The notes beneath the pieces were generated by a model. It did no database searches, was not told the DNA's origin, and saw only the letters and a program-made list of their open reading frames with translations. A DNA stretch of 33,800 nt from an uncultured Fibrobacter sp. (lineage in GTDB: Bacteria > Fibrobacterota > Fibrobacteria > Fibrobacterales > Fibrobacteraceae): positions 1 to 33,800 of the forward strand of contig NZ_CAMVDO010000029.1 of assembly GCF_947166265.1 (NCBI RefSeq). Reading direction: 5' to 3'. This document shows positions 4,027-8,304 of this stretch, in pieces; positions within the stretch are counted from its first letter, which is position 1, and every line of letters starts with the position of its first letter. Made by a program: the position numbers and the translations under genes.

Positions 4027-4133
4027 ATTATGCCGGAGGGTTGCTTTTTGTTAATATGCGTCATTAACTTATGTAAAAATTTCTAAATTTGCGTTTGATT
4101 TTGTATGACGTGAACAAAAGAACCTTTTATAAC

Positions 4134-4139
4134 AGGAGG
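4134..4139 (+). promoter_or_regulatory. Shine-Dalgarno AGGAGG fixing the start at 4149
   Basis: AGGAGG lies 9 bases before ATG 4149. The reading frame extends 20 codons further upstream to 4089, but that part lacks a ribosome site and would bury the signal peptide. The remaining 4027-4133 stretch is AT-rich leader with no clear feature. Confidence 0.8.
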
Positions 4140-4148
4140 AAAGTGTCC

Positions 4149-7100
4149 ATGTTCTCCAATCAAAAACTCTCTTTACACTCGCTCCGTTTGGGGTTTGTGC
4201 TCATCTTTACCCTGCTTATGGCAGCAACCTCGTGGGCTGCGGATCTTGAAGCAGTTTCGTACATCGATGAAAATGGCGCTGAAAAGTTCCTTGAACCGGG
4301 CTCTTACACCTTGCTCGATACCTTGCTTGGCGGTGAATATGGCAAACCCGACGAGAACGATGTCATCCACATCCCCGGTGGCTGGTATGTGGTGCAGAAC
4401 TCCAATCCAAATGGCGAGAATTTGAATATTGCCTTTAGAACGCTCTCCTTCGATGGCGAAACCCATATCGTCATTGAAGACGGCGCAGAAATGCATCTTG
4501 AATCAACTGATATAAAATTAATCCAAGGCGACTTGTCAATCTACGGACAGACGCTTGGTACGGGTACGCTGACTGTTTATGATTCGTCTAATACGATTTG
4601 TCCCGTTGTTGTCAATGGGAACTTGAGCATTAACGGAGGGAATATCACCATAAGAAAAGGTGATGGACTCAAGGCTATAGAAGCATCTGGAGAAGTCCAT
4701 ATCAACAGCGGAACCGTCAATATTTCCTCTAACATCGACAAAGATGATCCAGAAGCAGAAGCAACAATCCAAGCTGATGATGGAGTTATCTTGGACTGGC
4801 ACAATGCAAATGACCGCTATACATTAGGTCGTGGAAACAGCATTTCTTTTGCTAAAGATAAGGGTTTTAAAGATGAAGACGGCAATGTTTATAGCAAGTT
4901 TGATGAAAGCCTGATTGATAAAACCATCTTGCCATGTTATGTCGTGACCCTTAACCTCCAGGACGGCCGCACACCAAATACGGTCGCTACAACCTTTGAC
5001 GAAAATGACGTGGCACACGTTGCAAAGCCCGAAGATCCGAGTCGATTCGAAATGAAGTTTCTCGGCTGGTTCACTACTGAAAATGGCGATACTGAATTTG
5101 ACTTCTTCGCACCCGTAACCGCAAACACTACCGTCTATGCCAAGTGGGCTAAAAAACTCCCAGAAATAGAAATTGACAAAATTCCCGACCAAATCTACAT
5201 TGGCGACTCTATTTGTCCTACCCCCGATATAGAAAAGCCCGACAGCATTCTCGTAAATGATGACTACAAAGTTTATTGCGAAAACAACTTAAATGTCGGT
5301 AAGGCATCATTTGTCATTGAGGGAATCGGAAGATATTATGACAAAACTATAAAGGAATTTAACATCACAAAGGCCCCGCTCACTGTTGTAGCAAAGAATA
5401 AGACGATTTCTTACGGTGACGAACCTGCAAACGACAGTGTCGAATGTATTGGCTTTGTCGGTGTCGATACGTTAAAGGAAATATCCGAAATTCTTAATGG
5501 TACGATATCTTATGAGTATAGTTATAAGGCTGGAGATAAAGCAGCTTCTGGCTATACAATCACGCCGGGGAATGTGACTGCCAACAACTATGAAATTCAA
5601 TTTAAGGAAGGTGAACTGACTGTTGTGCCGAAGGAAGTTTCCATCGCCTGGGACAAGCAGAATACGTTCACATACGATGGAACCGAACATATCCCAGCAG
5701 TAACGTTTGAAGGTGTTTTGGAAGACGACAAGTGTAGTTTCACGGTGACGGGAGCCGCTACAAATGCTGGCAAATACACGGCTACGGTAACAGAGTTGAG
5801 CAATCCCAACTACAAGTTGCCGGAAACAGGCTTCGAACAGGCCTTCGAAATTACAAAGGCTCCGCTCACGGTTACGGCCTTGAACGATACGATTGTCTAT
5901 GGCGACGATCTTTCCTTTGCTGGCGTTGTATATAGCGGCTTTGTCGGCGAAGAAGATGAGTCGGTCTTGAACGGAACTCTAGCTTACGAATGCAAGTACG
6001 ATAGGGGTGGTGCTGCAGGCAAATATGATATTACGCCGAGTGGCTTGACAGCCGAAAATTACGACATTGAATTTGTTGCAGGCGAATTGACGGTTGGACC
6101 GAAGAATGTTACCATTACATGGGGCAACACGTTGTTCTTCTACGATGGCAAAGAACATGTTCCGACTGCTACGGTAGAAGGTGTTTTGGAAGGCGACAAG
6201 TGCGTCGCTACAGTGACAGGTGCCGCAGAAGAGGTCGGAAACCACATTGCCACGGTGACGGAAATCTGCAACAGCAACTACAAGTTGAATAAGACTGCAA
6301 GCACATCTTTCTCCATCAGGGAATTGACTGATATTGCCTACATCGACGCAAACGGCAGCGAACAAACCTTGACAAAATACAATGTCCTGACCGGCAACGA
6401 AACTGCTCTTGATGCGGGTTGGTATGTAGTGCTGAACGACATTACTTATACAAACTCCCTCCAAATTAGTGGCGACGTGCATATCGTTTTGACCGATGAT
6501 TACACGATGAGCATCGGAACAACGGAGAATAGCATTAATAGCTATGGCATCACCAAGGACTACAATGGCAAGGCCAGCCTGACCATTTATGGACAGTCCA
6601 CTGGCACCGGCAAACTTGATATTTATGCTTGGGATAAGGCCATTTATGCAGACAACGTGACCCTCAACGGAGGCTTTATCAATGCAGAATCTTCAGATCT
6701 CGCAATTTATTCCGAGGGCGAAGTAACGATCAATGACGGTACAGTCATTACCAAAAGTAGTGGAAGCGCAATCTTCGCAAACGAAAAGATTAACATTAAC
6801 GGAGGTATCATAACCGTTGAAGCTCAGTCTACCTGTAGCAGTAGCATGGAATCATGGAATCCTGTCACAGGAGCTCCTGGAGAAATCAACTTCAGTTGGA
6901 AAAATGAAACCGACTCGATTATGTTTAAGAGTCCGTTCTACGGGATGATTTCCTTTGCAAACGGAAAGTTCTTCAAGGATGAAGACAACAACATTTATGC
7001 GGGACACCAGTATGTATACTTTGGTAATGAAAGGACTTTCACTCCTTATTACGCTCCGTTCGTGGTTTATACAGATTATTTAGATGACAAGACCTATGTC

Positions 7101-8024
7101 GCGATTGACGGAAACTTTAACGGCACAGACGCCATCAAGATCGAAACGGATATCGCTGTTGACAAAATTATCCTGAACCGCACCTTTAAGCAGAGCGGCT
7201 TTGCAACGATCATGCTTCCGTTTGACTACGACGCCAGCAATCTCCAGGGTGTAAAATCCATCGTCGAGTTCAATGGCGTTCAGCAATCTAACGGAAAATC
7301 AAGTGTGGGTATGCAGTACGTATGGTGCAACAAGGACGTCCAGGATTCTCTCCAAAAAGACGCTATCGCAAAATGCAATGCAAACGGTGACACGGACTGC
7401 GAAAAAACTGCCAAGTACGAACGATGCAACGAATCCGACTATTTCGACAATGCTGGCAAGATATTCGCCTACACCCCGTACATGGTGCAGGTGGATGCAG
7501 ATGTCATCACGTTCACGATAGGAGCGACGCTCAAGCCGACCCCCGCCAAGACCGAAACTCGCGGCGAAGTCGATGGAGATTGGATTTTCCGCGGTACGCT
7601 GCAAAAGCATACTTGGACCGAGGATGAAACAAAGGATGGACTCATCCGCGCATTTGCCGCAAAGGTTCAGGATGGAGCCAAGCAAATCGGCCAGTTCGTA
7701 AAGCTCGGTGCCGGAGCCTACTCCCCGGCATTGCGTGCCTATATGATCAAGGAACCGAAGGTGCAGATGAACGCTCCTCTTCCGAGAGGTGTCGAGTACG
7801 CTCCTGCAATTATGCCTAGTGCCGAAAACAATCTTCCTGAGACCATGGATGTGGTCATCGTTAGCCGCAGCACCACAGGCGGCAACGAGCAAACCACCGT
7901 CATTGGCTCACTCAACCCGCGCACGGGCGAATTCCACCTGAACAACGTGGGCAAGCGCACCTTCGACCTCAAGGGCCGCAGCGTAAGCAAGCCGAGAGCC
8001 AAGGGAATCTATTTGAAGAAGTAA
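4149..8024 (+). CDS. Large exported MBG/InlB-repeat surface protein
   Basis: A 1291-residue protein with a signal peptide (about 1-31, ending SWAA). Two modules open alike (YIDENGAEKFL at about 35 and YIDANGSEQTL at about 730) and continue into GG-turn, beta-helix-like repeats such as SLTIYGQSTGTGKLDIY and INGGIITV. Between them lies an InlB-type (Listeria-Bacteroides) repeat at about 262-334, with FLGWFTTENGD and TVYAKWAKK. It is followed by a duplicated MBG pair (about 406-570 and 571-724), each copy with APLTV, YGD, NYxIxFxxGELTV, YDG and NYKL motifs. The last 350 residues match nothing I know and end FDLKGRSVSKPRAKGIYLKK, which resembles short C-terminal sorting tails of Bacteroidota-type secreted proteins. 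It is probably a surface adhesin or scaffold; that role is inferred from domain types. A 45-aa peptide gene follows 28 bp downstream. Confidence 0.88.
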   Translation: MFSNQKLSLHSLRLGFVLIFTLLMAATSWAADLEAVSYIDENGAEKFLEPGSYTLLDTLLGGEYGKPDENDVIHIPGGWYVVQNSNPNGENLNIAFRTLSFDGETHIVIEDGAEMHLESTDIKLIQGDLSIYGQTLGTGTLTVYDSSNTICPVVVNGNLSINGGNITIRKGDGLKAIEASGEVHINSGTVNISSNIDKDDPEAEATIQADDGVILDWHNANDRYTLGRGNSISFAKDKGFKDEDGNVYSKFDESLIDKTILPCYVVTLNLQDGRTPNTVATTFDENDVAHVAKPEDPSRFEMKFLGWFTTENGDTEFDFFAPVTANTTVYAKWAKKLPEIEIDKIPDQIYIGDSICPTPDIEKPDSILVNDDYKVYCENNLNVGKASFVIEGIGRYYDKTIKEFNITKAPLTVVAKNKTISYGDEPANDSVECIGFVGVDTLKEISEILNGTISYEYSYKAGDKAASGYTITPGNVTANNYEIQFKEGELTVVPKEVSIAWDKQNTFTYDGTEHIPAVTFEGVLEDDKCSFTVTGAATNAGKYTATVTELSNPNYKLPETGFEQAFEITKAPLTVTALNDTIVYGDDLSFAGVVYSGFVGEEDESVLNGTLAYECKYDRGGAAGKYDITPSGLTAENYDIEFVAGELTVGPKNVTITWGNTLFFYDGKEHVPTATVEGVLEGDKCVATVTGAAEEVGNHIATVTEICNSNYKLNKTASTSFSIRELTDIAYIDANGSEQTLTKYNVLTGNETALDAGWYVVLNDITYTNSLQISGDVHIVLTDDYTMSIGTTENSINSYGITKDYNGKASLTIYGQSTGTGKLDIYAWDKAIYADNVTLNGGFINAESSDLAIYSEGEVTINDGTVITKSSGSAIFANEKININGGIITVEAQSTCSSSMESWNPVTGAPGEINFSWKNETDSIMFKSPFYGMISFANGKFFKDEDNNIYAGHQYVYFGNERTFTPYYAPFVVYTDYLDDKTYVAIDGNFNGTDAIKIETDIAVDKIILNRTFKQSGFATIMLPFDYDASNLQGVKSIVEFNGVQQSNGKSSVGMQYVWCNKDVQDSLQKDAIAKCNANGDTDCEKTAKYERCNESDYFDNAGKIFAYTPYMVQVDADVITFTIGATLKPTPAKTETRGEVDGDWIFRGTLQKHTWTEDETKDGLIRAFAAKVQDGAKQIGQFVKLGAGAYSPALRAYMIKEPKVQMNAPLPRGVEYAPAIMPSAENNLPETMDVVIVSRSTTGGNEQTTVIGSLNPRTGEFHLNNVGKRTFDLKGRSVSKPRAKGIYLKK

Positions 8025-8052
8025 TTAAACCACTAACCAGGTCCAAACGATT

Positions 8053-8190
8053 ATGAAAAACGAAACTCAGACTGAACTGAAAAAATCCTACACCGCACCG
8101 ACGATGGAAGTGGTGAAAATCAACAACCAAACGAATCTGCTGTGCAGCAGCGACCCCAGCGATCCAACTTATTGCGGTGAGATATACTAG
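8053..8190 (+). CDS. 45-residue peptide of unknown function
   Basis: A short frame running ATG 8053 to TAG 8188-8190. It encodes a hydrophilic N-terminus, then KKSYTAPTMEVVKI, NLLCSS, and a C-terminal tail with two Cys in total (CSSD and CGEIY). AGGT sits about ten bases upstream, and only 28 bp separate it from the preceding surface-protein gene, so co-transcription is likely. The K-x-Y-x-x-P-x-x-x-V then LL..S arrangement resembles small orphan peptides I remember from Bacteroidota genomes, often near surface proteins; their role is not established to my knowledge. No signal peptide or membrane segment is visible. A terminator follows at 8278-8304. Coding evidence is the conserved-looking motif and position, not length. 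Confidence 0.65.
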   Translation: MKNETQTELKKSYTAPTMEVVKINNQTNLLCSSDPSDPTYCGEIY

Positions 8191-8277
8191 TCTTCACCCG
8201 CAGAAATAAACGCGCAAAGGCGACCGCAAAGTCTAAAAACAAGTAGTTCAATACGATTGGATTTTGCTCTCGCAACC

Positions 8278-8304
8278 GCCCCTGTTTAATGACAGGGGCT
8301 TTTT
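8278..8304 (+). terminator. Intrinsic terminator of the surface protein/peptide operon
   Basis: GCCCCTGT (8278-8285) pairs with ACAGGGGC (8292-8299) around a six-base loop, followed by TTTTT. This is a textbook intrinsic terminator ending the 4149-8190 unit. Confidence 0.88.

Follow-up and report, generated by a model that had tools for sequence, protein, structure and literature searches.

What does a 45-codon reading frame encode when it follows directly on the gene for a giant exported protein, and does it encode anything at all? The question arises in a 33,800-nt stretch of DNA (the window) from an uncultured Fibrobacter sp., in which the frame starts with ATG 28 nt past the stop of the exported-protein gene and translates as MKNETQTELKKSYTAPTMEVVKINNQTNLLCSSDPSDPTYCGEIY*. 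The ORF coordinates and a downstream hairpin bear out the original prediction of a short frame placed between a 1291-aa exported protein and a terminator (Table 1). The peptide has no signal peptide, and on its own it had no match in Pfam, NCBIfam or plasmid searches. Since a 45-codon ORF is uninformative by itself, the evidence that it is real comes from homology.

Table 1. Features of the peptide gene and its surroundings in the window.
Feature	Position	Strand	Basis
1291-aa exported protein: signal peptide, MBG_2, List_Bact_rpt, Cthe_2159	4149..8024	+	ATG at 4149
C-terminal tag of exported protein (..NPRTGEFHLNNVGKRTFDLKGRSVSKPRAKGIYLKK)	7842..8021	+	Profile A5, E 2.3e-21; tag recurs upstream of peptides
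Recurrent block, protein gene plus peptide gene	4062..8209	+	blastn, 86% identity to L061:5874-10027, other Fibrobacter species
45-aa peptide gene, proposed LPP-like RiPP precursor	8053..8190	+	13 own-genome family copies; pN/pS < 1
Conserved N-terminal part, residues 1-30, proposed leader, ending Leu29-Leu30	8053..8142	+	Residue counts, 89 distinct Fibrobacter peptides; analogy with LppA
YxxP motif, codons Tyr13-Thr-Ala-Pro16	8089..8100	+	Tyr and Pro invariant (89/89); motif role from PMC13381572
Variable tail CSSDPSDPTYCGEIY, proposed core peptide	8143..8187	+	Tail pN/pS above leader; family median net charge -3
Ser33 codon (Tyr+20), proposed phosphorylated residue; core position 3 if cut after Leu30	8149..8151	+	Ser in 84/89, Thr in 1
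Intrinsic-terminator-like GC-rich hairpin and T run, end of unit	8278..8299	+	

A large peptide family with a strict register

At loose thresholds, the peptide has ten further matches in its own genome, all ten with the motif, and a family profile finds 13 copies there (E<=0.01). Applied to about 1 Mb of Fibrobacter DNA, the family profile matches 91 of 18,885 real short ORFs, and none of 23,680 ORFs once that DNA is reversed. When built from the own-genome copies, the profile detects the family in 34 of the 37 genomes searched within the genus Fibrobacter and in none of 23 genomes from other genera of the phylum; relatives are also present in Prevotella-type Bacteroidota.

The members follow a strict pattern: KK-x-Y-x-x-P-x-[MVIL], then L-L at +16/+17 and Ser at +20 counted from the Tyr, then a variable, mostly acidic tail. 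Among 89 distinct Fibrobacter peptides, the Tyr and Pro of YxxP are invariant, the two Lys ahead of the Tyr occur in 87 and 86, and position +5 is always hydrophobic. Of the 89, 86 have Leu at +16 and 85 have Leu or Met at +17; 84 carry Ser at +20, and one has Thr at that position. The 8-30 residues past the conserved Ser are variable and mostly acidic, with a median net charge of -3 over the family. The window peptide fits this register exactly (Tyr13, Pro16, Leu29-Leu30, Ser33). The informative residues are Tyr-Pro and the conserved Ser, which the original prediction had not stressed. The two Cys that it mentioned are no family trait, as 47 of the 89 tails contain any Cys; since about half of the tails lack it, a Cys-based reading (sactipeptide or disulfide) was rejected.

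The closest orthologue of the window peptide (locus L061) is 89% identical (pN 0.055, pS 0.152). Over 33 peptide pairs, the pooled pN/pS is 0.29 (leader 0.25 vs. tail 0.38), from pairs picked at >=55% identity, which biases the ratio toward low values. A lack of motif-bearing homologues and a dN/dS near 1 had been named beforehand as outcomes that would count against the peptide, and neither was found. The 45-aa ORF is thus a real gene and a member of a large peptide family whose coding sequence is under purifying selection.

Pairing with exported proteins that share a C-terminal tag

The protein in front of the window peptide contains four MBG_2 stretches, one Listeria-Bacteroides repeat, and one Cthe_2159 match, and it has an alternative TTG start at 4089 that would extend it to 1311 aa. 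Pairing of the peptide with a large exported protein proved real and recurrent: of the 74 peptides in ten near-complete Fibrobacter genomes, 66 follow a tag-ending gene on the same strand at a distance of <=450 nt (chance 0.04), a count that is partly in-sample, as the tag profile was made from proteins in front of peptides. The count was 15 of 17 in three peptide-bearing genomes left out of profile building. Seen from the other side, a peptide comes after 50 of 66 tag genes, and 16 of these have two (13 genomes, three of them peptide-free). These profile counts replace an earlier regular-expression tag count (60/91), which was too strict.

The class of partner turned out differently from what had been supposed. 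MBG or InlB repeats had been expected to define it; however, proteins ahead of peptides differ greatly in size and domains, and such domains were therefore rejected as the shared feature. What the partners have in common is the C-terminal tag alone, with the consensus ..NTxTGEIxxxxRWFDLKGRxLNxKPxAKGxYYxx.. or, in short form, ..TGE..[FY]DLKGRxxxKPxxKGxYxxK. About 20 of 46 inspected Bacteroidota peptides stand behind a similar tail, e.g., WYSLDGVRLNGKPTQRGMYINKGKKILIK. The tag shares with type IX secretion C-terminal signals (TIGR04183) its basic character and its C-terminal position on exported proteins in the same phyla, and F. succinogenes S85 has been proposed to use T9SS (PMC6851124). In a comparison of 25 partner tags with TIGR04183 and Pfam tails, there was no match at E<=1, and the tag was rejected as a known T9SS tail; a divergent type is possible.

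The block that holds both genes in the window recurs in another Fibrobacter species (L061), where the flanks on both sides are unrelated to those of the window. Because this 86%-identical block recurs without its flanks, the protein and peptide genes are inherited as one unit. Beside a glutamate-dehydrogenase-like gene (L061, L069) and beside an ispF-like gene (L065, L070, L086), different Fibrobacter species carry different cassettes of tag protein and peptide, as if cassettes were exchanged at fixed chromosomal sites across species.

Two peptides of the own genome are preceded by genes without the tag. The gene ahead of L012:8370-8504 (G000:C9) is HisH-like, and that ahead of L017:7599-7748 (G000:C17) encodes an exported protein with another C-terminus.

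A single RRE operon away from most peptides

Six of 58 family members weakly match a lasso-precursor model, a result that drew attention to YxxP as a motif bound by RREs; YxxP has this role in lasso, PQQ, and LPP leaders (PMC13381572). A stand-alone PqqD-type RRE is encoded in 72 of 80 Fibrobacter genomes, in a single copy each, and in the own genome it lies at G000:C50:6930-7199, away from the window peptide. Around it is an operon for an NTP transferase (PF14907), an HprK-like kinase, an S24/S26-type protease, the RRE, and an ABC exporter. Over 58 loci, the ABC gene is found near the RRE at 53, the protease at 49, the HprK-like gene at 48, and the NTP transferase at at least 28. Rumen Prevotella, Segatella, and other Bacteroidales share this operon, and their RREs are about 60-69% identical to the query.

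The genes of the own-genome operon (L119) overlap or are nearly contiguous, and at its 5' side are a tag-protein gene and a peptide. This tag protein (L119:9766-11858, minus strand) carries a GLUG-type motif, and few peptides in the genome are as divergent as the one beside it. In about ten Fibrobacter genomes, the RRE and the ABC exporter are present with no protease or kinase found nearby. At 12 loci (L133, L136, L137, L138, L173, L178, L182, L185, L186, L192, L205, L218), the RRE is directly followed by the ABC exporter, with no HprK-like kinase or protease near.

The operon proteins could be assigned by sequence and predicted fold. The RRE matches PqqD (PF05402, E 2.7e-12), and its predicted model aligns with the lasso B1 protein TbiB1 with bound leader (Z 12.1, rmsd 2.5, 82 aligned). 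Its Asn35 and Asp74 are invariant and, by count along the sequence, are the likely counterparts of LppB N33 and D70; LppB was not among the matches at E<=1 when solved structures were searched by sequence with the RRE. The NTP transferase matches PF14907 (NTP_transf_5) at E 3.6e-45, and the exporter (ABC_tran and ABC_membrane) is MsbA-like (TIGR02203, E 5.1e-63). The protease is closest to archaeal-type signal peptidase I (TIGR02228, E 1.3e-8, below the curated cut-off), with Ser34, His77, and Asp92 invariant in 18 sequences. The putative HprK-like kinase has an invariant Walker A (GKSGTGKST), and its predicted model has the fold of the HprK/PEPCK superfamily. It also matches ScmC of the SynChlorMet cassette (TIGR04249, E 4.3e-6), a likeness confined to that one component. 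Sequence searches of solved structures with the kinase and the protease returned nothing useful.

Resemblance to linear polyphosphorylated peptides

The closest described system is that of the Linear Polyphosphorylated Peptides (LPPs; lppAKBSDN), reported in May 2026 and restricted, as described, to Bacillota (Popov et al., Nat Commun 2026; PMC13381572). The LPP core set consists of an RRE, a signal-peptidase-like protease, an HprK-like kinase, an NTP transferase, and an MsbA-like exporter; the protease cuts the leader in an RRE-dependent manner, and the kinase phosphorylates only core Ser3, acting on Ser and not on Thr or Tyr (PMC13381572). All five enzyme features are found by sequence or fold in the Fibrobacter operon: a stand-alone RRE with a lasso-B1-like fold, an archaeal-type signal-peptidase-like protease with Ser/His/Asp, an HprK-like kinase (by sequence and predicted fold), and, in the same cluster, an NTP transferase and an MsbA-like exporter. 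Both systems are also alike in having no lasso cyclase.

The precursors agree in a YxxP leader, a conserved N-terminus and variable C-terminus, and a conserved Ser shortly past the presumed cleavage site. The LPP consensus is YxxPxVLxHQxIxFETxxS (PMC13381572); Fibrobacter peptides have YxxPx[MVIL] and ..xxS, frequently HQ, and LL in place of the absent FET, and the spacing from Tyr to Ser is 20 compared with 18 in LPPs. Modelled on LppA cleavage (PMC13381572), the leader of the window peptide would be cut after Leu30. A cut behind Leu+17 would make the conserved Ser core residue 3, the same place as in LPPs.

Like the Tyr-to-Ser spacing and the LL in place of FET, two further features count against this reading. 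Leu at -1 would be unusual for a signal-peptidase-like enzyme. Most precursors lie outside the operon: the own genome and several others have one copy at the operon and most copies elsewhere. Another difference from LPPs lies in number and placement: a Fibrobacter genome encodes about ten precursors, of which almost none lie in the operon and which as a rule follow exported tag proteins. The hosts also differ, being Fibrobacterota and Bacteroidota rather than Bacillota. Altogether, we consider it likely that the 45-aa peptide is an LPP-like RiPP precursor, linear, Ser-phosphorylated, and possibly further modified, that is matured in trans by the RRE operon. The Fibrobacter system would thereby work like that of LPPs, of which it is a candidate member. 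The suggestion of a precursor peptide, one of several offered for this frame at the outset, is well supported; a secretion partner and a regulator of the large protein, offered alongside it, are conceivable roles too.

Alternative explanations

The peptide could instead remain unprocessed and serve the tag-bearing exported protein as a small cytoplasmic partner (a pilot, chaperone, or translation-coupled regulator). The tight pairing, the movement of both genes as one block, and the missing signal peptide would all suit such a role. However, a pilot should be conserved where it contacts its client, and it is the tail that varies, while the conserved part contains the YxxP motif known from RRE-bound leaders and a Ser at an invariant spacing; moreover, some peptides stand behind unrelated genes. 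The peptides also track the RRE. Among the first 37 Fibrobacter genomes, peptides occur in 33/33 with the RRE and in 1/4 without a close copy (Fisher 5e-4), and in 121 Bacteroidaceae genomes the RRE is present in 48 of the 49 with peptides (Fisher 1.4e-4), values that are optimistic in that related genomes overstate independence. The four Fibrobacter exceptions are G001, G014, G018, and G031, the last with a distant match only; a fifth RRE-less genome, G081, also has no peptides. G001 and G014 kept tag proteins with neither RRE nor peptide, which argues against a partner of the tag protein as such. Peptides without a detected RRE were found in G018, which has 7% contamination, and in one Bacteroidaceae genome (G170). 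About half of the RRE-bearing Bacteroidaceae genomes have no peptide at E<=0.001, perhaps due to poor sensitivity. Peptides are thus mostly absent where the RRE is absent, and we regard an unprocessed partner as unlikely.

Alternatively, the operon may export and cut the peptides while leaving them unmodified or modified by other enzymes, with the kinase and NTP transferase acting on other substrates. The approximately ten Fibrobacter genomes with RRE and ABC exporter but no kinase or protease nearby would be explained in this way. The near-invariance of Ser at +20, with Thr in a single peptide, fits a Ser-specific modification instead, and the presence of the kinase in the operon at 48 of 58 loci makes this alternative quite improbable.

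The peptide and its operon share several features with the systems of paeninodin-like and pseudomycoidin lasso peptides: a YxxP/WxxP leader (YxxP in 89/89 Fibrobacter peptides), a PqqD-type B1, an HprK-like kinase that acts (here putatively) on Ser, and an NTP transferase; PqqD, kinase, and NTP transferase are common to paeninodin clusters, and the weak matches of 6/58 members are to the paeninodin precursor model NF033524 (best E 6.7e-4). The genus differs in having neither B2 protease nor lactam cyclase over threshold. The transglutaminase-like B2 leader peptidase (PF13471) had no match in 24 Fibrobacter genomes, and the cyclase model NF033535 reached only E ~1e-4 and ~20 bits (cut-off 525 bits) in 23 genomes of the genus, on a frame of about 470 aa that probably encodes a glutamine amidotransferase such as PurF. 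Fibrobacter peptides also lack the penultimate Thr of lasso leaders and the Gly1...Asp ring pattern. With neither B2 protease nor cyclase in the genomes searched, a lasso precursor of the paeninodin kind was rejected as very improbable.

Elsewhere in the same class, a PqqD gene beside a Transglut_core3 protein in another family (L101, L111; G042:C146:3893-4579, minus strand) is likely a true lasso-type locus. In G045, G047, and others of family f3 (L278-L281), there are up to 13 lasso-cyclase-model matches per genome, all below the cut-off, which are probably asparagine-synthetase-like proteins of another kind.

A chance ORF or functionless selfish repeat, to which the shortness of the frame and the absence of Pfam and NCBIfam hits to the window peptide might point, has a negligible probability beside a family in two phyla with a pN/pS of 0.29, a strict register, and a pairing far above chance.

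Proposed maturation and role of the peptide

From the computed family, motif, pairing, operon, co-occurrence, and RRE and kinase folds, we infer the following route for the window peptide as an LPP-like precursor. The KKxYxxPx[MVIL] N-terminal part would be bound by the stand-alone RRE encoded elsewhere in the genome, which would present the peptide to the HprK-like kinase for phosphorylation of Ser33 and to the signal-peptidase-like protease for the cut after Leu29-Leu30. The ABC exporter of the RRE operon would then move the tail out of the cell. In this LPP-like reading, Tyr-Pro would be invariant because of RRE binding and the Ser near-invariant because of the kinase. One operon would serve about ten dispersed precursors, and all precursors of the family are probably processed by this one shared enzyme set.

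Co-transcription of each precursor with the gene for an exported, tag-bearing protein is probable, so that the two products probably function jointly outside the cell. The pairing suggests that the mature peptide probably acts with the tag-bearing surface protein or is needed in making it. We tentatively raise a more specific possibility, that across Fibrobacterota and Bacteroidota the matured phospho- or glycophospho-peptide is dedicated to the co-encoded tag protein as its anchor, ligand, adaptor, or attached modification, with one in-trans RRE operon for many such pairs.

The original prediction of an undescribed system is thus correct in part: the enzyme set has a recently described relative in the LPPs of Bacillota (PMC13381572), while the new element is the dispersed, protein-paired precursors. 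In the literature searched, with most subscription journals outside the search, no paper links such peptides with exported proteins. A single maturation operon for about ten scattered precursors is an unusual layout for RiPPs. The finding offers an explanation for orphan KxYxxP peptides of two dominant gut and rumen phyla and carries the LPP gene set past Bacillota. Because nearly every precursor here is linked to an identifiable exported protein of its own, the role of LPPs becomes testable.
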